This document shows, in pieces, positions 3,101-25,199 of a DNA stretch of 37,524 bases. Numbering within the stretch: position 1 is the stretch's first letter; the number at the start of each line of letters is the position of its first letter. Position numbers and translations under genes: made by a program. The notes beneath the pieces are model-generated. The model made no database searches. It was not told the DNA's origin and saw only the letters and a list, made by a program, of their open reading frames with translations. This stretch comes from a virus, in IMG/VR virus record IMGVR_UViG_3300025280_000079, positions 1-37,524 of that record; one strand, written 5' to 3'.

Positions 3101-3243
3101 CCTGTTTCCTTCCCTATTGGGCAGTTTGTGTTGTGAAGTTCCATTTGCGGAATCTGGCAGCATGTGTGGCAGGCGCACTCGCACGGCTCACTGCTGTCTC
3201 TGTTCGGGAATAAGCCTGAACACTTGTTATGCCAGTGGTGCAT
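3097..3243 (-). CDS. Small Cys/His-rich protein
   Basis: With the ATG at 3243 the protein has 48 residues: MHHWHNKCSG followed by PCECACHTCCQ. This HxWH..C ... C-x-C-x-CH pattern recurs in small phage proteins and probably folds around zinc. An alternative GTG start at 3303 would add 20 residues and overlap the preceding gene by 46 bp, with no ribosome-binding site; neither start has a strong one. The gene ends in ..GKETG*, feeding the repeated cassette that starts the 29-aa membrane gene. Confidence 0.6.
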   Translation of the reverse strand: MHHWHNKCSGLFPNRDSSEPCECACHTCCQIPQMELHNTNCPIGKETG

Positions 3244-3257
3244 ACATGCCGCGGCTA

Positions 3258-3602
3258 TCACTCTGAGTCCACCAGTTGTAATGGCATAGCCATTCTTCCG
3301 CACGTACAGGTGGGGCAGTGATTAGGGTTGGTGGTAGAAGATCCAACAAATTCTTTTATCCTGTAAGCAGTATCACCTGCCTCTGATGTACGGCTACATT
3401 CAACAATGTAACCCATCGACCGTAAGTCAGAGATTCGCCCCGTAAACCCCTTAGTACCAACGTACTCAGCAATGTCATCTCTGCGATGCCATCGGCCATC
3501 TCGCATGAATACAAACATCCGACGTTTGTGGCCTTTCCACCGTTCCCAATCTGATGGGTTAGGAATAAACGGCCTCATCCCAGACAAACTTATTTGAACC
3601 AT
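3258..3602 (-). CDS. Winged-helix protein with C-terminal Cys motif
   Basis: This 114-residue protein has a likely winged-helix domain at about residues 24-90: RRMFVFMRDGRWHRRDDIAE...FTGRISDLRSMGYIVECS ... DTAYRIKEF. This is the pattern of phage helix-turn-helix proteins in which the recognition helix (TGRISDLRSMGY) is followed by a wing. The tail has HCPTCTCGR, a compact Cys cluster. The start overlaps the methyltransferase stop as TAATG, with AGAGAGGAAC upstream. It may regulate its neighbours or the methylase; the target is unknown. Confidence 0.75.
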   Translation of the reverse strand: MVQISLSGMRPFIPNPSDWERWKGHKRRMFVFMRDGRWHRRDDIAEYVGTKGFTGRISDLRSMGYIVECSRTSEAGDTAYRIKEFVGSSTTNPNHCPTCTCGRMAMPLQLVDSE

Positions 3603-4774
3603 TAGTTCCTCTCTTTCAATATTTGAAACGCCAGTGCTGCCTGCTGCGGGACTACTCCGTTGCCGAGGATACGAAGCTGTGTAGATCGAGCCAGCCCTCG
3701 GGCCAGCCCATCAGCCACTCCACGAACCGCGGGTTCAGGCGTTTCCTGCTGCCGACCTGATCGCCCAGCTTGTAGTGTGCTATCCCCCCCATCTTCATCG
3801 TCCCCCCCTCCGCTTCGGACTTGACCGGTGTTCTCCACTGCCGGTGCGAGGTCTGGTCTTCGGCTGATGACATCTCGCCACTCTGCGCCTGCGCCTGGAC
3901 CTGGTGGGAAAGCATGTTCTGCATATTCCCCGCCAGTGTGCCAGCCGCGTCCTCGTTTGCTGACGGGGCTAGCCAGTTCTGAACGTCGTTCGGAAGGTTT
4001 TTGTTGAATCCTGTCGGATGTTTCTCCGTCGTTGTATGACCCTTCCCGTCCCTCGCTTCTGGCGTTGCCCATCGGCTCGTTACTTGTGGAAGTGCGTCCA
4101 TCCGACTCTGCCCGTCTTTCCTCGTTAGTGCCTCGTCCGAGTAATCCCCTTTGTAGTCCCGGGCTGCTGGAGTTGGCCAATGCTGTGCGATCGCTGGTAG
4201 CCCGTGTCGAGGGTCGTTCGATATATTCCCCCGTTTCTCCGGGTCGTTCGCTCTTGCTGTGGGCCATAATGAAGACGCGCTCTCGGCGATGCGGTGCGCC
4301 GACATCACTCGCTCGTACACACATCCATTCCGCATCGTACCCGATTTCGGAAAGTTCTCCGAGAACGGTTCCAATTCCATCTCGAACAAGGACACCTGGG
4401 GTGTTCTCCAACCAGAGAAATCGGGGTCGTATCTCAACAGCCAGTCGCCGGATATGCTCCCAGAGCCATCGCTCGTCATCGGTTCCTTTTCGGTTTCCGG
4501 CGACACTGAACGGCTGGCAGGGAAAGCCCCCAATGATCCAATCCACTTTGTCAGCAAACGGTCGGCAGTCGAGGGTTCCGGTATCAGACCAAACAGGTGC
4601 TGCATCCATGAGTCCCGCTTCAATATGGTCAACCACGAGCGCGGCTGCCGGTAACTCTCGTTCCACGTATAAGACGCACTTAGCTTCTGGATTCGCGAGT
4701 CGGAATCCGAGATCGAGTCCGCCGCCACCGGTGTAGAGCGAGATGTAGGTTTGCTGTCCGGTATGTAGAGCCAC
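3602..4774 (-). CDS. dcm: C5-cytosine DNA methyltransferase
   Basis: This 390-residue protein transfers a methyl group from S-adenosylmethionine to C5 of cytosine in DNA. The ordered motifs are all visible: I, SLYTGGGGLDLGF (residues 12-24); IV, GGFPCQPFS with nucleophile Cys86; VI, ENTP (123-126); VIII, RRERVF (163-168); and X, QLRILGNGVVPQQAALAF near the C-terminus. Residues about 172-355 are the variable target-recognition region, hydrophilic and low in hydrophobic residues. The GTG start at 4774 lies just before motif I. No cognate restriction enzyme is adjacent, so a solitary phage methylase protecting against host restriction is likely. A second frame through the same DNA is also open (see the ORF at 3652-4809). 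Confidence 0.93.
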   Translation of the reverse strand: MALHTGQQTYISLYTGGGGLDLGFRLANPEAKCVLYVERELPAAALVVDHIEAGLMDAAPVWSDTGTLDCRPFADKVDWIIGGFPCQPFSVAGNRKGTDDERWLWEHIRRLAVEIRPRFLWLENTPGVLVRDGIGTVLGELSEIGYDAEWMCVRASDVGAPHRRERVFIMAHSKSERPGETGEYIERPSTRATSDRTALANSSSPGLQRGLLGRGTNEERRAESDGRTSTSNEPMGNARSEGREGSYNDGETSDRIQQKPSERRSELASPVSKRGRGWHTGGEYAEHAFPPGPGAGAEWRDVISRRPDLAPAVENTGQVRSGGGDDEDGGDSTLQAGRSGRQQETPEPAVRGVADGLARGLARSTQLRILGNGVVPQQAALAFQILKERN

Positions 4775-4809
4775 ATTCCAAACCTTTCTGTCCTGAACTT
4801 TGGAATCAT
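3652..4809 (-). other. Long overlapping ORF in the +1 frame of the methyltransferase
   Basis: A 385-codon frame stays open on the same strand through almost the whole methyltransferase gene, starting 35 bases before it. Its product is patterned: SGWRTPQVSLFEME...FSENFPKSGTMRNG, then SLWPTARAND, WPTPAARDYKG and WATPEARDGKG, ending LNPRFVEWLMGWPEGW...SSATE. I recall phage proteins, some annotated separately as methylase-associated, with exactly this WxTPxARD ... LNPxFVEWLMG order. However, FSENFPKSGTMRNG is what methylase motif VI-VIII codons give when read one base later, and LNPRFVEWLMG likewise mirrors the VRGVADGLA segment before motif X. It is therefore either an overprinted gene or a widespread shadow frame. 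The upstream ATG at 4809 has only a weak site. Confidence 0.35.
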
Positions 4810-7722: not shown

Positions 7723-9765
7723 TCACTCCTGTATTTTCCGATATTGCCCAGCCGCGTTCACTGTCACAACCCCGCGGTCTTTTGCCCGTAGCAGCGACTG
7801 CCTGATGGTGACTGCTTTGAGGTCTGTCAACTCTTCTGCTATTTCGGCGGGCGACATGCTTTGGGTGGCGACCAACGACAAGATTCGGTCGTGCGCTGAA
7901 AGCTTCGGTGCAAGCACTTCCGACTGTGTAAGGTCGGCCTCTGTATACGTGATCTTTCTTGCGTTCTTATACTCGTCTGACTGGAAGTCCACACGCAGCC
8001 CGACAGGTCGCATGATTCCGGTGTTGCTTCCCTTCCTATGGGTAATGGCGATCACGGTGCTGTCGTTGCCGGGTTCTGCATCTGCGGATACCTCGTAGAT
8101 TTGACGGGCGAGGTTCGTGTAATACACGCTGCCGTATGCAGAAGGTTCCCGGGAATTTTTCGCGGCGTGCGTGATACCGATGCTCGATATCCCAAGGGCC
8201 GACATGACCTGATGCCAGGTGCGTGCTGCTTCTGCGTCATTGGGACTGTGCTGATCGCCTGACGCGGCGACCAGCGAGTCCACGCAGATCAGCTTGATGT
8301 CATGGTCGGCGATGTCCTTTGCGATAGCGTCGAAATAATCAGCCAATGCACCGTGGTAGCGTCGGTACAGTACCGGCTTGAGGACATCATGTTCCCATGT
8401 CATACCCTGCCCTCTGAGCAGGGCCGTGGCGGTGGTGTTGAAGGCTTCCTCGCTGTCTTCCCAGTCGCAATACATGACTCCACCGGGGAAGCCTGGGTCT
8501 ATGCCGGGGATCAACTGCGTCCCCGATGCCTTCGACAAGAGGAGGGCAGTAGCAATTGTTGACTTGCCGTTACCTGCAAACCCGAACATGAGTGTGGGCT
8601 GGCTGGTCTGGACGTAGGGTCGGACGCACCAGCCCTCATCGACAGCGGTTGGTGTATGGAAACGCATGTCCTTTGCTGCGCCACCCTCTTCGAGGCTGCT
8701 GCTAACCATGTTGGATACCTGATCCAGTACCATCTGCCAGTTGAGAGGTCTGCGGTTCTTCAGCACCCGCGTCAGAGACTCACGACCTGATGATGACAGC
8801 AGGTTCAGTCGCACTGGCCCAAACAGAGGATCAGTATGAGAACTAAACTTAATCCAACATTCGATACCGGATTTGCTCACTGTTATCCGGGTCAAGGACA
8901 CAATCAAATCCTCGCTCGACCATCTGAAAACGCGACGGTTAGCGATCTCCGACATCACGACGGGGGCAGAGACATCTTCATTCGCGAATACATTCTCTGC
9001 TGGCACGTACCTGTAGATAGACTGGATCGTCTGATCGAGTTCGCGCTCGTCCATCGGCGGGTCACAAGCTAACCGGAATGTCTCCAGCAACTGGCGCGCA
9101 ACGTCGATAGGTATGTGCTTGCTGTTTAGATATCCAGCTAGTCGCGCGGTGACATCGTTGCGCTGACCTTCGGGCGCGCCTTCGGAGAGGTAGGTCGCGA
9201 CCCATGAGGGCTGGGTAACGTCATCCCACCCTGCTGTAACGCCTGTGCGTGGACGAGAGGACGGCTTACTGGCAGCGTATGCCACCAGTTCCGGCCACTG
9301 TCCGAGGGGTAAGTCGCGAATCAGTTCGTATGGTTTGCCGTCGATCACCGACGGCGGGGCCACGATGTATCCGTTTGAGGCCCCATTCCTCACGTCAACC
9401 TTGTCGAGCAGTCCGGCTGTCTGGGGCAGGTCAGTGCCTTGATGTTCCAGCAGCAAGTGAAAACCGCGGGGCGTTTTATGTGTACGGCACTCTGGAATCT
9501 CCAGACCCGCCTGGGTCAGTGCAGCTTTAGCTTCTGGGCCATCCAGATCCACTACTGTGAAGCTGTCGCCACATGCGATCCCGATGTTGGCTCGCGGGTA
9601 CGTGGTGAACAGCTTGGTGATTATTTCTGGGTCGGTGGTAGCTGACAGCGATCCGTTGGGCTGGAGCAGCGTGTCCTTGATGGGGATTTTTGAGTTCGGG
9701 CTGAGTGCCAGTATCGCGAATCCCTGTCGGGCGTACTCGATTCCTGCGGACAGAATGTCAGCCAT
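7723..9765 (-). CDS. Primase-polymerase / RecA-like ATPase (helicase) fusion
   Basis: This 680-residue replication protein has an N-terminal bifunctional primase-polymerase domain (AEP/Prim-Pol, about 1-165). It shows VVDLDG with the catalytic Asp73/Asp75, HKTPRGFHLLL (96-106) and DVRNGASNGYIVAPPS. A primase C-terminal helical segment follows (EGQRNDVTARLAGYL, about 199-213). The C-terminal half is a RepA/DnaB-type ATPase: Walker A GFAGNGKST (395-403), Walker B LICVDS with Asp496, and ITHAAK (531-536). Residues about 625-677 form a winged helix (SPAEIAEEL...TIRQSLLRAKDRGVV). It should prime and unwind DNA at the phage origin. The ATG at 9765 follows GAGAGGAGAATCC. No separate DNA polymerase is seen in the window. 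Confidence 0.9.
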   Translation of the reverse strand: MADILSAGIEYARQGFAILALSPNSKIPIKDTLLQPNGSLSATTDPEIITKLFTTYPRANIGIACGDSFTVVDLDGPEAKAALTQAGLEIPECRTHKTPRGFHLLLEHQGTDLPQTAGLLDKVDVRNGASNGYIVAPPSVIDGKPYELIRDLPLGQWPELVAYAASKPSSRPRTGVTAGWDDVTQPSWVATYLSEGAPEGQRNDVTARLAGYLNSKHIPIDVARQLLETFRLACDPPMDERELDQTIQSIYRYVPAENVFANEDVSAPVVMSEIANRRVFRWSSEDLIVSLTRITVSKSGIECWIKFSSHTDPLFGPVRLNLLSSSGRESLTRVLKNRRPLNWQMVLDQVSNMVSSSLEEGGAAKDMRFHTPTAVDEGWCVRPYVQTSQPTLMFGFAGNGKSTIATALLLSKASGTQLIPGIDPGFPGGVMYCDWEDSEEAFNTTATALLRGQGMTWEHDVLKPVLYRRYHGALADYFDAIAKDIADHDIKLICVDSLVAASGDQHSPNDAEAARTWHQVMSALGISSIGITHAAKNSREPSAYGSVYYTNLARQIYEVSADAEPGNDSTVIAITHRKGSNTGIMRPVGLRVDFQSDEYKNARKITYTEADLTQSEVLAPKLSAHDRILSLVATQSMSPAEIAEELTDLKAVTIRQSLLRAKDRGVVTVNAAGQYRKIQE

Positions 9766-18913: not shown

Positions 18914-19221
18914 TGGCGATAAACCCCACCTTCGCAGGATTTCTTGAGGAAGAGCCTCGTGCTGCCTTCTTCGGGACGCTCGGACAGAAAGGCATGATGG
19001 ATACGTCTGCACGTAAAAGGCAGGCACAGGATATTTATTCAGGGGCAATGTCAGAGTTCTACGGGAAGCTGGGTGAGCAGATACTCGGCGGCGGACAGCC
19101 GACGATGAAGTTCACCGACTTCCTCCAGGACTTCCCGTTTACCGAACGATTCGCACAGCTAGGAAGGCAGTACAGTCAGCAGAGCAGGTTCAGTCCTAAA
19201 ACCCGGTTCCTGTATCACTGA
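18913..19221 (+). CDS. Small putative virion protein
   Basis: This 102-residue protein starts in a TAATGG overlap with the previous gene and ends in a TGATG overlap with the giant gene, so all three are coupled. It reads INPTFAGFLEEEPRAAFFGTL, DIYSGAMSEFYGKLGEQILGG and TDFLQDFPFTERFAQLGRQY, alternating helices with Phe-rich turns. The repeated F-x-x-FL motif (FAGFLEE, FTDFLQDF) also appears at the start of the giant protein (SFADFVGRG), hinting at a shared docking peptide. Function unknown. Confidence 0.7.
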   Translation: MAINPTFAGFLEEEPRAAFFGTLGQKGMMDTSARKRQAQDIYSGAMSEFYGKLGEQILGGGQPTMKFTDFLQDFPFTERFAQLGRQYSQQSRFSPKTRFLYH

Positions 19222-22200
19222 TGACGATGCAGTCGTTCGCCGACTTCGTTGGAAGGGGGCAGCAGAACCTCTACAGGGAGAGGCCGCAGGACGCAATCCG
19301 AAGGCTTCTTGCTGAAGTACAGGCGGGGGGTAAGCGCGCGGAAGCCGCATTACGCACACTCCGCTCAATGCCCGGCGGGCCACAGGCACTCCAGGCTGTA
19401 TCAGCCCCGGCACCCGCCCCAGCACCTGCAAGACCTCAGACAGCACAACCGGTTGTCACCGCAACTCCAAGTGACTGGGATGTTGCAATGGGAAAGATTA
19501 CAGAGTCTCAGCGTTCTCAAACGTCGCCGGATATTATGGCTGACTTAGAGCGAAGCGGTGCTGAACGTGAACAATATGGCAGCATACCTGAAAAGGATGA
19601 TTATCAGAATTTTATTAACCATGAACTACTCGAACAGTCATTGGTTGAGAGAGGGATGTCCCCCGAAGATGCACATACTCGTGCAACGGAACAGTTTGGT
19701 GAAGGTATTGATATACAGGCACTAGCCCGTGCTGACGAACTAAAAGAACTTTTTGGTGCTGATTTTGATGTAGATAGATTCTCTCGTGACCACCTGTTCA
19801 GACGGCAAATGGTTGACACGCTACCTCCGGCACCCACCCCAGCACCAGTACCGGTAGCACTTGCCCCGGCACCAGCAAGACCTCGACCCCAGACAGCGCA
19901 GGCTACACAGGCTGTAGATGTCCAGCGTCCGGTTCCTCCGAGAAGTACAAATATCATAGGACAGACGATAGGGCGCGGTATCGGGCCTCCTGCAAGAGCG
20001 TTAGGGCGCGGTGCAGGGGCGATTGGAAGAGCGCATTTAGAGATGGGAGAACCGATACTAAAAGGACTTGCGGCGGCGGGGAGGTTTGGGGCTGGACACG
20101 TTGTAAGTGATGCCTCTGATATTGTTCATGGTCTGGAGAGGCTTAGAGGAACTCCGTTTGAGGATCAGTTTCCTGGGTTACTTAACGACAGCCAACTTGA
20201 GTGGTTAAGAAAGTTTGAAGCTGCAAGAATAGCCCAGAGAGAAATAGACAGGACAGGGGGATTTATAGAAAAAGCAGGACGGCGGCTTAATCCTTTCCAA
20301 ACTACAGAGGCAAGAGCCTTAAGCGACCCTGAGTTGAGAGAGTCGGCGCATCAGTTTCCTGTGTATCTTCCTTTTGTAAACCAAGACAGCCTGGACCCTG
20401 CCTTTCATCTCAGCGCACTGGATGTTGCAGAAGGTGCCTTTGAGCCTTTAAATATAATTGGAGTTGGGGCTGGAACTAAAGTTGCTAAAGAACTTCGACA
20501 GTTAGTTCCTTATTTGGGAACCTTACAGAAGCCAGGCAGAAGACCTGTCGGTCAAGTATTGCAGGAAACCGGTCAGAGTATTACAGAAGAGTTTGCACCT
20601 GTTACCCGTAAAGCTGGAGAAGCGGCAAGAGCAACAGGACGCGAGGCTCTAAGACAGGCTGAACGTATGCCCGGAGGATTGCCGGGGGTAGCAAGATTTG
20701 CTGACGAGCCTATTGTTCCTTCTAGGGGGGCTGGGGGAGTTGGCGGTACGCTTGATGAGTTCTACCCTCTTGCGGGAGATACCGTAGACGGGAGAACAAC
20801 AAGCACTAAAGTTGATAATTTCGATTCTGTGAGATCGTCTTATTTGTCTTTTGAAGAAATTCCAGGCATTAGAGAAATGGACTTGCGTTCATGGGGTGCT
20901 GAAGGAGGATTTGTTGCTGCTGATGATATTAGGCACGTAGATGAGTTAGCTAAAGCGATTCGTGAAAGCAACCATATTGACCCTGTGATTATTGGGGTTG
21001 GTAAAGATGGTGAGCCAGTTGTTATCGAGGGAGCGCATCGTGTCGCTGCTATGCAGAAATTAGGTGCTAACTCAATTCCTGTGAAATTGGTCGTAGACAC
21101 CACAGATGCGTCGTTAGATGAAGTGGCAACAGCAATACGGGGTACAGAAGAAGCCTGGAAAGGACGTACTGCTTTTGTTGATCCACCCACCACCCCAGCC
21201 ACAAGGCAGGCTGACGTTGCTGCCGCTCCAAAGCCCGGCGTAGCGGTAACAACGCCTAGTGGCAGGGTGTTACCCGCATGGCAGACTGAGGGAGGAGCGT
21301 ATCTCAGGGTCATGGAAAACGTGGGAACTGAAGTGCAGCCCGTTATACGGCCTCGCACTGCAAGGGTCGTGGAAACCACGCCGGAAGGGATTATCAGGGC
21401 AGAGTCAACCGAAGGCAGGGTATTCGAGGTAAACCCCGCTCAGACCGAGATCGAACAGGCTACACGTACAGAGATAGAAACGTTCAACAGGCAGAGAGGT
21501 GTTGATACTGCGCCGCCTGTACGTCCACCGAAAAAGGCTGCTACGGGTATACATCGCCCGGGGATGGCTCCTGCACAGATTGCTGAAACAGCTAAAGAAG
21601 ACGCAGCAAAGAAGATCGTTCCCAGCCCTGATGCAGGAGGGGGAGGAAGTATAGATGAACTTACGTCCGCTCTTGCAGGCTTACCTGAAGAAGATGCAGC
21701 TAAAGCATTAGACAATACATATGACAGTACAAAGTTAGATGTAAGCCAGCTTGGACTTGGAGAAGAGTCCCGCATGTTCGGGCTGGAGGAAACTGTTGAT
21801 TTAGGATTGAGTCGTATAGAAAGACTTGCTTCATCTCTTGCGGGACTTGTACGGGCAAAGGGTCTTGTGCATGTTGACGTTGTGGATGCATTGTGGAACC
21901 TTCGCACAAGAGTTATAAATAACGCAGAGAAACTTGCCGCTTCTCAGGCTCTAAGGATTGCACCAAAAGTAAAACGTGCCTTTAAGCCCGATAAGAACGG
22001 CCAGATCCAAAGCCTGATAAACATTGATGCGTCCCTGCGAGGCGCAGCACCCACAATTCAGGATGTTGCCGCGCGGTTACCCAGGTTTCTCCCGCATCTG
22101 AATCGAGAGCAGATCCAAGCCCTCGAAGAACTCAGAAAAATAACTGCTCCACATAAGAAAGTTTTAGAGGAGTCCGGGCGAGAACTTGGACTCCGTCCAG

Positions 22201-25199
22201 ACATTATTGATGGTGGGTTCTATGTTCCCCGCGGAAACATACAGCTAGACGATCTTGACTCAGGAACCATCGTTGTAAAAAGGCTGGGTGTCCCACAATC
22301 TCAAGTAAAAGCTGCTGAACATCCTTCGATGGCAGAAGCAATTCTTAACGGCTCAGAATATTCTACGTTTCCAAAAGCGATTGATGCCCTTGTAAAAAGC
22401 ACCGGTCAAACTGTTGGAGATAATTTCTTTGCAGCAGCTATGAGGGCGATAAGGAATGAAGACGGAATAAGGATAGGTCGTACTGCAAAAGAACTGGTAA
22501 TTGAAGAAAGTCCAGAAGTCTTTCAGCAAATGGCGAAATTGAGAGCAGCTTCTACACGATTGAAAGGTCTTGTTAAGCAGAAAAACCAGAAAGCCCTTAA
22601 AGAAATGGATCGCTTTATTGAAGATCCGGGCATAGATGACATAGATCAACTCGTAACGCTTTTCGGTAAAAAAAGAACTGTTCTTCGCGGAACGCTAAAA
22701 GGCGCAGAACTTAATAAGGCTGAAGAAGCCCTTGAGATACTCCTGGCAGAACTTAAAGCCTATAAATCTGTATATGACTATGAAATGCAAACTATTGCAA
22801 AGCGGCTTGGTCGAAAGGAAATCGGCGGCGAAGAACAGTTCCCGCGACTTCATGGCGTTTCGTTTGCAGACATCTTTGCTAATCGTGCGAATGATTTAAT
22901 TAATAAAGAAGTAGCAGTAACAGTTAAAGATAAAGCCCAATATGCTAAAGAAGCACTTCAGGGAACAAACGGTATTATGCGGGCAACAACAGCAACTGCT
23001 GATAACTCCGCAATGGGTATCCAGTTGCTTATTACCGGTTATGATTCTCCAAAGGTATGGCATAAAGCCTCAGTTAAATCTCTGAAGGCTTGGGGTGGCG
23101 AAGGTGTCTATGCTTCATGGGCAACAGAATTTAATGATGCTGCAAAAGCCAGAGGGACTTTTACTACAGACGAGTGGGCTGGAAGATTTGGCTTACACCA
23201 ATCTGGTAAACCAATAGATGTTTCTTCCGACATACTCGAAGCAGGCTTTAACATTCCCGGTGTTCGCAAGCCTGTAGGTGGATTCTTCCAGGCAGCATCA
23301 CGGGCTTTTTCTGTAGCAGGGGATGTTGCTCGAATAGAACGGGCGCAAGAACTTTTACTTGAAGAACTTGCAAAAGGACGAACGATAGACGAGTTGATTC
23401 AGGCAGGAGATCTTCGCCGTATGGCGAATCATGTAAATGCCTCTTCGGGATTTGTTAATGGAAGATTTGCTTTAGGTAATTGGATTTTCTATTCCACCAA
23501 GTTTTTATTTGCAAGGATGCTTACGGTTGCCCGTGCAATGAAAGGGATGGATCTTGATGCGCCTCTGGATATGGTTCCGATAGTAGGCAACAAGCTGCGA
23601 GGCAGGGTTCCAAAAATAAATAAGTTTGCAACTATGCAGGACAGGTACGCCCGTCGCGCTATTCTTCGGGTGCTTGGATGGGGAACAATCTTGACTGTGT
23701 TGGCTAATGAAGCCAGAGGAGAAGAAACAGACTTCAGGCTTTATATAAAAAACCGTGAAGGAAAGCTTTATGTAAATCCGAACTTCGTGAAAATACGAAA
23801 CCTAGGCGGTCGTGACAGGTCAGTCTTTGGTCCACTGCACGGGTTACTAAATCTGGTTGCATCTGCTGCTATCACTCCTAAGACGGGAGAAATAGCAAGT
23901 CTTGCAAAGCGGGCAATAAATGCTCCAGGCGCAAGTCTTATGTTAGATTTTGCCCGAAACAAAAAATTTGACGGGACACCAATTTACAATCCGAAAGCGT
24001 CACTTGGGTATAAGGCGGGGCAAGTGATGGGGCATGTCGCTACTAATATGAGGCCTTTTGCGTTAGATGAATCAATGGAATATATAGGTCCGGGGTTCAA
24101 CGATTTTAAGGAAGGCGATATCGTATCGGGTGGTATATCTGTACTCGACATGCTTGGAGAAAGTTACGGTGCTTACTCGACTCCCTTGAGCAATTCGGAA
24201 CTCAGGGACCTGCTTGACATGGAAGAGGACATGGACCCTCAGATGCGCCATGAACTTTATATGATTCTTGACTCTCGCCAGTCTGGATACGAGGCTTTTA
24301 TAGTCGGGGAAGACTTTGCCCCGAGATACAAAAAGTTCAAGAACGACGTTTACAAGAAGTTTGGTAAACCTTTTGGAGATTTAGATACTCTTGCGAAATC
24401 TCAACTGGAAAAGGACCCGGTGCTTGGCCCACAGTACAGAGAGTTTGACCTGATAAGAAGTCGCGCCATGCGAGATGTAGAAGGCTTCGAGGATAAAGGT
24501 GCAAGATCCAGAACGGAAAGACGGCGAATACAGAGCGATGCACAAAGTCAGGCCCGTGCTGTTTTAGGCAGGGATATTTTCGACCTGATTGACACGCTTG
24601 GGCATCCCCGTCTTGGCAGGTATGTTGATGAAGACGGCGGAAAAATATCTATCAGGAGCAGGTTGTTTGAGTTCGTAGATACAGTTAGCGATATAAATAA
24701 TACGGCAGAGGGACGTAAGTACCAGTTACAAAGAGATCTAGGGTTTGATCTTCCGTTTGTTCATGACCCTAAGTCGGAGTTCGATAAGATTCTAAACGTG
24801 TGGTATAGCGTCTATAGGAAGCACGAAGTAGTAATTCCTCTCAGGGACGAACGAGTTCCGAGTACTCCGTGGAGAGGAGAGCAGCTTGAAGGTAGTTTGG
24901 ATTGGGATGCAATAAAGGCAGAACACAAGGCGATTTATAATTCTCTTACAGTGCCTCAGCAGAAACAATTAAACGACTACCTTGCAAGAAACGATGATGA
25001 ACTTGTCTACAGAATAAAACAATTAGCTTTCGACAAGCCGCCTGATTTTCAGAAGACAGAAGTTACCAATATAGTTTTATTCCAGAAAATAAATGTTTTG
25101 CGAAATCAATATCAGGCATCTCAACCGAAGATTGAGAGGCCGTTAGTTGTACCTTCAGTCCCCGAGATCCCGGAGAGATGGTGGGAGCAGGCTGAATGA
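19221..25199 (+). CDS. 1,992-residue putative ejected virion protein with ParB-like domain
   Basis: This is the largest gene in the window. The N-terminal third has helices joined by Pro/Ala linkers (APAPAPAPARPQTAQP near 60-76 and a second copy near 200-225). Residues about 555-630 match a ParB/sulfiredoxin-like fold: DELAKAIRES, HIDPVIIGVGKDGEPVVIEGAHR (split in two; EGAHR at about 603-607) and AAMQKLGANSIPVKL. From about 820 onward it is mainly helical. The stretch near 1420-1560 (FYSTKFLFARM, RRAILRVLGWGTILTVLA, FVKIRNLGGRDRSVFGPLHGL) follows a pattern I recall from very large phage polyvalent or ejected proteins. Its location between portal and scaffold fits a protein packaged in the head and injected with the DNA. 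That role is inference. Confidence 0.8.
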   Translation: MTMQSFADFVGRGQQNLYRERPQDAIRRLLAEVQAGGKRAEAALRTLRSMPGGPQALQAVSAPAPAPAPARPQTAQPVVTATPSDWDVAMGKITESQRSQTSPDIMADLERSGAEREQYGSIPEKDDYQNFINHELLEQSLVERGMSPEDAHTRATEQFGEGIDIQALARADELKELFGADFDVDRFSRDHLFRRQMVDTLPPAPTPAPVPVALAPAPARPRPQTAQATQAVDVQRPVPPRSTNIIGQTIGRGIGPPARALGRGAGAIGRAHLEMGEPILKGLAAAGRFGAGHVVSDASDIVHGLERLRGTPFEDQFPGLLNDSQLEWLRKFEAARIAQREIDRTGGFIEKAGRRLNPFQTTEARALSDPELRESAHQFPVYLPFVNQDSLDPAFHLSALDVAEGAFEPLNIIGVGAGTKVAKELRQLVPYLGTLQKPGRRPVGQVLQETGQSITEEFAPVTRKAGEAARATGREALRQAERMPGGLPGVARFADEPIVPSRGAGGVGGTLDEFYPLAGDTVDGRTTSTKVDNFDSVRSSYLSFEEIPGIREMDLRSWGAEGGFVAADDIRHVDELAKAIRESNHIDPVIIGVGKDGEPVVIEGAHRVAAMQKLGANSIPVKLVVDTTDASLDEVATAIRGTEEAWKGRTAFVDPPTTPATRQADVAAAPKPGVAVTTPSGRVLPAWQTEGGAYLRVMENVGTEVQPVIRPRTARVVETTPEGIIRAESTEGRVFEVNPAQTEIEQATRTEIETFNRQRGVDTAPPVRPPKKAATGIHRPGMAPAQIAETAKEDAAKKIVPSPDAGGGGSIDELTSALAGLPEEDAAKALDNTYDSTKLDVSQLGLGEESRMFGLEETVDLGLSRIERLASSLAGLVRAKGLVHVDVVDALWNLRTRVINNAEKLAASQALRIAPKVKRAFKPDKNGQIQSLINIDASLRGAAPTIQDVAARLPRFLPHLNREQIQALEELRKITAPHKKVLEESGRELGLRPDIIDGGFYVPRGNIQLDDLDSGTIVVKRLGVPQSQVKAAEHPSMAEAILNGSEYSTFPKAIDALVKSTGQTVGDNFFAAAMRAIRNEDGIRIGRTAKELVIEESPEVFQQMAKLRAASTRLKGLVKQKNQKALKEMDRFIEDPGIDDIDQLVTLFGKKRTVLRGTLKGAELNKAEEALEILLAELKAYKSVYDYEMQTIAKRLGRKEIGGEEQFPRLHGVSFADIFANRANDLINKEVAVTVKDKAQYAKEALQGTNGIMRATTATADNSAMGIQLLITGYDSPKVWHKASVKSLKAWGGEGVYASWATEFNDAAKARGTFTTDEWAGRFGLHQSGKPIDVSSDILEAGFNIPGVRKPVGGFFQAASRAFSVAGDVARIERAQELLLEELAKGRTIDELIQAGDLRRMANHVNASSGFVNGRFALGNWIFYSTKFLFARMLTVARAMKGMDLDAPLDMVPIVGNKLRGRVPKINKFATMQDRYARRAILRVLGWGTILTVLANEARGEETDFRLYIKNREGKLYVNPNFVKIRNLGGRDRSVFGPLHGLLNLVASAAITPKTGEIASLAKRAINAPGASLMLDFARNKKFDGTPIYNPKASLGYKAGQVMGHVATNMRPFALDESMEYIGPGFNDFKEGDIVSGGISVLDMLGESYGAYSTPLSNSELRDLLDMEEDMDPQMRHELYMILDSRQSGYEAFIVGEDFAPRYKKFKNDVYKKFGKPFGDLDTLAKSQLEKDPVLGPQYREFDLIRSRAMRDVEGFEDKGARSRTERRRIQSDAQSQARAVLGRDIFDLIDTLGHPRLGRYVDEDGGKISIRSRLFEFVDTVSDINNTAEGRKYQLQRDLGFDLPFVHDPKSEFDKILNVWYSVYRKHEVVIPLRDERVPSTPWRGEQLEGSLDWDAIKAEHKAIYNSLTVPQQKQLNDYLARNDDELVYRIKQLAFDKPPDFQKTEVTNIVLFQKINVLRNQYQASQPKIERPLVVPSVPEIPERWWEQAE

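Follow-up and report, generated by a model that had tools for sequence, protein, structure and literature searches.

Two-polypeptide cytosine-5 methyltransferases

M.EcoHK31I (recognition site YGGCCR) and M.AquI (CYCGRG) are known C5-methyltransferases (C5-MTases) composed of two polypeptides, and M.EaeI is a relative of M.EcoHK31I. The small subunit (beta) of M.EcoHK31I is about 176 aa long, is encoded in an alternative frame within the large subunit (alpha) and starts inside it. The larger M.EcoHK31I polypeptide carries motifs I-VIII and X, together with the predicted target-recognition region (TRD), while motif IX is in the smaller one, and artificial splits of M.SssI complement each other (PMC3404938). 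In mycobacteriophage methylases an inserted HNH homing endonuclease, the ShiLan insertion, has been described (PMC11855218).

Here we analyze a window of 37,524 nucleotides, a virus record whose minus strand has two open frames, of 390 and 385 codons, on one 1.15-kb stretch. We refer to the chain in the Dcm frame as alpha and to the chain in the +1 frame as beta. Compared by description, the window is like M.EcoHK31I in having motifs I-VIII and X in one polypeptide and motif IX in the other. A second subunit in an overlapping alternative frame is also shared, with full +1 overlap in 145 of 166 classified loci. Unlike in M.EcoHK31I, the constrained TRD is in beta (36 of 42 locus pairs) and alpha is predicted to be disordered there. 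The window beta is also far from the M.EcoHK31I beta in layout: it has 374 aa, starts at the alpha start, overlaps alpha end to end and possesses a conserved N-terminal segment. The window shares with M.AquI a natural split near the variable region but differs in that motif X is in alpha and that the genes overlap fully, not only at their ends. As with the ShiLan insertion, an out-of-frame protein is hidden in a phage methylase gene, although the HNH endonuclease is no part of the methylase. Our literature search found no paper describing an overlapping alpha/beta methylase family. Judging from the sequence comparisons below, the locus very probably encodes a heterodimeric C5-MTase of the M.EcoHK31I kind from two genes that overlap end to end.

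Layout of the locus

The features are listed below in window coordinates; all are on the minus strand.

3602..4774, minus: alpha ORF (Dcm frame), putative catalytic subunit with motifs I, IV, VI, VIII and X; 390 aa, GTG start
3652..4776, minus: beta ORF (+1 frame), putative recognition/motif IX subunit; 374 aa when read from ATG 4776, a conserved start
4772..4776, minus: nested start codons ATGTG (beta ATG 4776-4774, alpha GTG 4774-4772)
4783..4788, minus: weak Shine-Dalgarno-like GAAAGG; spacing 6 nt to the beta ATG and 8 nt to the alpha GTG
4703..4744, minus: alpha motif I (ISLYTGGGGLDLGF)
4496..4531, minus: alpha motif IV with the catalytic Cys (GGFPCQPFSVAG)
4394..4423, minus: alpha motif VI (RFLWLENTPG)
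4259..4300, minus: alpha motif VIII (GAPHRRERVFIMAH)
3728..4258, minus: alpha linker over the beta TRD, largely predicted disordered; under selection against stops (0 against 322 expected among relatives)
3626..3679, minus: alpha motif X (QLRILGNGVVPQQAALAF), matching phrog_1008 positions 291-317, right after the beta match
4531..4776, minus: beta N-terminal segment (MWLYIPD..., then predicted helices), with more conservation than the alpha shadow explains
3742..4266, minus: putative beta TRD with WxTPxARD-type repeats
4156-4179 and 4048-4071, minus: beta WxTP repeats WPTPAARD and WATPEARD
4243-4266, 3949-3975 and 3814-3837, minus: degenerate WxTP copies in beta
3691..3741, minus: beta motif IX (RLNPRFVEWLMGWPEGW), with an LN..FVEWLMGW block

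Read from its first ATG (4809), the +1 ORF spans 3652-4809 and encodes 385 aa, and the stop-to-stop opening extends further upstream. The true beta start is probably ATG 4776.

The Dcm-frame chain

Alpha matched PF00145 over residues 10-189 only (Pfam, 8e-32). Its AF2 model is confident at residues 5-180 and 360-390, while residues 188-289 have pLDDT below 50 and are predicted to be disordered. The best Foldseek matches of the model were M.HaeIII (E=2e-14) and M.HhaI, with about 172 columns aligned. The features by which a C5 cytosine DNA methyltransferase is recognized (motif I, motif IV with PCQ, an ENV-like motif VI, motif VIII and a matching fold) are all found in alpha. The usual continuation, a TRD followed by motifs IX and X in one chain, is divided in the window: the TRD and IX are in the +1 frame and X is in alpha. 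On the model, alpha is the large domain of a C5-MTase without the small domain. It has neither motif IX nor a foldable TRD, and the +1 frame holds both.

Stop codons in the two frames

Expected stop counts were obtained by permuting the codons of each protein so that its amino acids and codon usage stayed unchanged. In the window, the alpha frame is stop-free over the TRD when beta is held fixed (4.3 stops expected, p=0.0015), and the beta frame is stop-free over motifs I-VIII when alpha is held fixed (p=0.0085). Across 70 loci, a set that required overlapping ORFs of some length, alpha-frame stops over the TRD numbered 0 against 322 expected and beta-frame stops over I-VIII numbered 2 against 122.

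To avoid selecting open +1 frames, a second viral search used the Dcm-frame alignment only. The +1 frame was fully open over motifs I-VIII in 75 of the 80 loci it gave, with 8 beta-frame stops observed and 191 expected; the third frame had 541 against 497. As controls we used 56 ordinary C5-MTase loci from viral contigs, found with a profile of six loci which a query with the M.HaeIII N-terminus had returned. Their +1 frames showed no depletion (484 stops observed, 460 expected). The double opening in the window is more than chance, and the same is true of almost every relative. Since a shadow of the Dcm codons would show stops as the ordinary C5-MTases do, the +1 frame is not a shadow.

The original prediction, made from the window alone, was of a methylase gene open in two frames with ordered motifs in both. 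Both points are borne out, the first beyond chance by codon permutation and the second by motifs I, IV, VI, VIII and X in the Dcm frame and the WxTP repeats and RLNPRFVEWLMGWPEGW in the +1 frame. It also proposed counting +1 stops across homologues and comparing change in the two frames; the stops proved far fewer than expected, and change in the two frames, described next, points to purifying selection on beta.

Alternating constraint

Fifty-five disjoint locus pairs were compared, and the codon position that varied most was used to tell which frame is constrained. Between the start and motif I, the most variable position was the third position of beta in 13 of 15 pairs. It was the third position of alpha in 50 of 53 pairs for motifs I-IV and in all 55 for motifs IV-VIII. 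The third position of beta was again the most variable over the TRD (36/42) and motif IX (19/21), and that of alpha over motif X (30/41). Constraint alternates, lying on beta up to motif I, on alpha from I to VIII, on beta again in the TRD and IX, and on alpha in X. In control monomeric C5-MTases the gene's own third position was the most variable throughout, including the TRD.

The third-position difference over I-VIII was 0.35 in the two-frame genes against 0.45 in controls, at similar first- and second-position divergence (0.14, 0.08) in sets otherwise unmatched. This lower third-position change fits an added load from beta.

The +1-frame chain

In nearly all betas a start codon lies right by that of alpha, and W[LIVF]xxP comes no more than two residues after it. 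The beta start is upstream of alpha motif I in most loci and on motif I itself in four (L002, L010, L073 and L076). Because its position relative to motif I varies in this way, the start with its W[LIVF]xxP is not tied to the alpha sequence. In 120 of 121 relatives the beta start has an alpha-frame start codon no more than 15 nt away, the offset being most often +2 (82 loci) or -4 (60 loci). Of the 121, 90 carry 4 nt or more of AGGAGGT upstream, with a spacing mode of 8 nt.

Residues W2, P6, W48, G63, P68, S69 and W78 of the beta N-terminal segment are conserved at 90% or more. Over motifs I-VIII, beta columns are conserved beyond the alpha shadow, with a permutation z of 50 against 19 for a third-frame control, which shows that these scores are inflated by relatedness. 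Tryptophans over the same region of beta are kept in 22-27 of 31 diverged sequences. The N-terminal half of beta has no known homologue, and the whole of beta gave nothing convincing against Pfam, NCBIfam and PDB sequences, even with a 58-sequence profile. AF2 modelled beta poorly, with a mean pLDDT of 54, and the reasonable parts are confined to the motif IX helix and the helices of residues 45-82. The N-terminal segment would help beta to dock on alpha.

The first sign that the +1 frame belongs to the methylase came from phrog_1008 ("DNA methyltransferase"), since this profile reads continuously from the +1 segment into motif X. The +1 protein matched it over profile positions 42-281 (E 9e-38 to 1e-37). 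While phrog_1008 runs from the beta TRD and IX straight into X, neither it nor phrog_27243 ("unknown function"), both of which are matched by all 58 aligned betas, is described as a subunit encoded over another gene.

Motif IX of beta (LNPRFVEWLMGWPEGW) aligns with motif IX of M.HhaI (residues 271-314) with z 7.5; read in the alpha frame, this DNA scores z -0.2. The LN..FVEWLMGW block is invariant in the 58 aligned sequences. In a relative with separate genes, Upyo gp53, the IX-X tail is colinear with M.HhaI (z 9.9). Pfam returned no PF00145 match for betas with IX and X in one frame. The identity of motif IX rests on the M.HhaI comparison and on two loci, L214 and Rita, in which a like IX precedes X. 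The original prediction had taken LNPRFVEWLMG for the +1 translation of conserved Dcm codons (VRGVADGLA). The relation is inverted: VRGVADGLA is the shadow, since the changes tolerated in IX are at the third positions of beta codons and a resemblance to M.HhaI IX is seen in the beta reading only.

Split, overlapping and fused relatives

Searching with the +1 protein returned 80 viral loci, and its alignment then gave 80 bacterial and archaeal loci, which include Rhizobium, Pseudomonas, Acinetobacter, Myxococcus, Chloroflexi and others. A plasmid search with the window beta gave no match. In 145 of 166 classified loci both ORFs are open over the whole gene, and the second is always in the +1 frame. 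This end-to-end two-frame arrangement is found in well over a hundred phages and bacteria.

Other relatives have separately started chains with slight or no overlap. Gordonia phage Upyo has two annotated genes without overlap, gp53 lying downstream of gp54, and gp53 is homologous to the window beta (E=1e-6), as are Anthony gp79 (E=1e-8) and the beta of locus L156 (E=5e-10). In Anthony and L156, alpha stops just past motif VIII and beta holds the TRD, IX and X in DNA outside alpha. This is the M.AquI layout (alpha I-VIII, beta TRD-IX-X), which is seen in Anthony gp80/gp79, L108 and L156. In Rita, gp76 is a single chain with motifs I-VIII, LPTP repeats, IX and X in one frame, and in L214 the like IX precedes X in the alpha frame.

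Among the loci seen, beta always adjoins an alpha gene, with the exception of L064, which is on a contig end. That non-overlapping betas also adjoin alpha is as expected of an obligate partner. Free-standing +1 homologues, which the original prediction had proposed to look for, were found off Dcm codons (Upyo gp53, Anthony gp79, L156) but always beside alpha.

Several individual loci show further variation. In three alphaproteobacterial or proteobacterial MAGs (L119, L133 and L135) alpha ends right after VIII; beta is complete and includes IX, and neither chain was assigned a motif X. The near-identical methylase regions of mycobacteriophages Jarcob (L081) and Rita (L084) differ near 3190, giving one chain in Rita and two ORFs in different frames in Jarcob. 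The locus of E. coli PCP07014 (L166, 1501-2262) carries a pseudogene annotation because of an internal stop; with stops near 1864 in alpha and near 1868 in beta, both subunits are cut at one point. On a Paenibacillus polymyxa plasmid (L172, 1888-3378) the alpha-frame reading of the IX region occurs twice (GRVSDGLS and GRVLDGLS), as if the C-terminal part of beta had been duplicated.

A probable single enzyme from two frames

Comparison among relatives shows both frames to be selected, with constraint alternating between them, motif IX in beta and the same beta encoded as a separate gene elsewhere. One DNA (cytosine-5) methyltransferase would be made as two polypeptides from the same 1.2 kb. 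Alpha would provide a catalytic domain with motifs I-VIII, carrying the catalytic pocket and cofactor site, then a disordered linker and motif X. Beta, started from the same ribosome-binding site through the nested ATG/GTG, would supply the TRD and motif IX absent from alpha, and the assembled pair would be an active enzyme with phage DNA as its substrate for methylation. We infer translation of both chains, heterodimer formation, activity and specificity, and likewise an anti-restriction role. Phage orphan methylases are generally known in such a role, and methylation here would probably counter host restriction.

Programmed ribosomal frameshifting could instead fuse the frames, with I-VIII read in alpha, a +1 shift to the TRD and IX, and a return to alpha for X. 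This is unlikely. It predicts the same alternating constraint, IX and X can share one chain (Rita gp76 and L214) and phage methyltransferases are listed among genes with frameshifts (PMC10274946), but two shifts would be needed. It also leaves unexplained why alpha is stop-free across the whole TRD (0 vs 322), why beta is stop-free upstream of the shift (8 vs 191) and why a start codon of its own and the W[LIV]xxP N-terminus are retained in beta. The several relatives with separately started chains that barely overlap, or do not, argue against it as well. Because both frames avoid stops, we favor two separately started chains.

The original prediction had offered a second phage protein overprinted on the methylase as one of two explanations. 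A second protein does appear to be encoded, but not as an extra function laid over a complete methylase. An unrelated protein would agree with the real selection on beta, including the N-terminal half without a known homologue; however, the Dcm frame is incomplete, lacking IX and having a disordered TRD region in which its amino acids drift, and beta carries motif IX and is found fused to alpha in Rita gp76. We consider such a protein very improbable.

The other explanation takes the +1 ORF for a shadow of Dcm codons and the PHROG families that match it for artefacts. It draws on most beta changes over IV-VIII being non-synonymous, where alpha drives conservation, and is refuted to near certainty by the stop depletion with clean controls, the switch in constraint with purifying selection on beta, beta's own start and the homologues off Dcm codons. 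Sequencing error or a pseudogene was set aside, both frames being intact in more than 100 loci.

If the locus does encode a heterodimer from two overlapping genes, many annotated single "DNA cytosine methyltransferases" of phages and bacteria would be half an enzyme. Their recognition subunit would be unannotated or called "unknown function", and attempts to clone the enzyme or assign a methylome from the annotated frame alone would fail or mislead. E. coli PT62, Salmonella phage S9-5, Acinetobacter phage ABMM1 and a Leptospira plasmid all carry an intact beta, yet their annotations give alpha only; for Acidovorax phage Alfacinha1 it is the beta frame that is annotated as the methyltransferase. 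On balance we lean toward a widespread phage and prophage gene class in which two full-length, mutually required enzyme halves share one start site, selection passes back and forth between the frames and most annotations lack the second half. The repeated WxTPxARD units may act as recognition modules in tandem, with the target site set by them. In our judgement, few conserved same-strand gene overlaps in prokaryotes would be as extensive, and this one would provide a built-in way to make two subunits from one start region. As a natural system, it would allow split, overlapping and fused forms of one enzyme to be compared.

Other genes in the window

At 3602 the stop codon of alpha is overlapped by the ATG of the following minus-strand ORF (3258-3602), which suggests that this ORF may be translationally coupled to alpha. 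A protein with Prim-Pol, PriCT-1 and AAA_25 domains, a primase-helicase, is encoded at 7723-9765 on the same strand as the methylase. The structural gene block contains a 1992-aa ORF (19221-25199) with a weak ParB-N-like stretch at residues 570-635.
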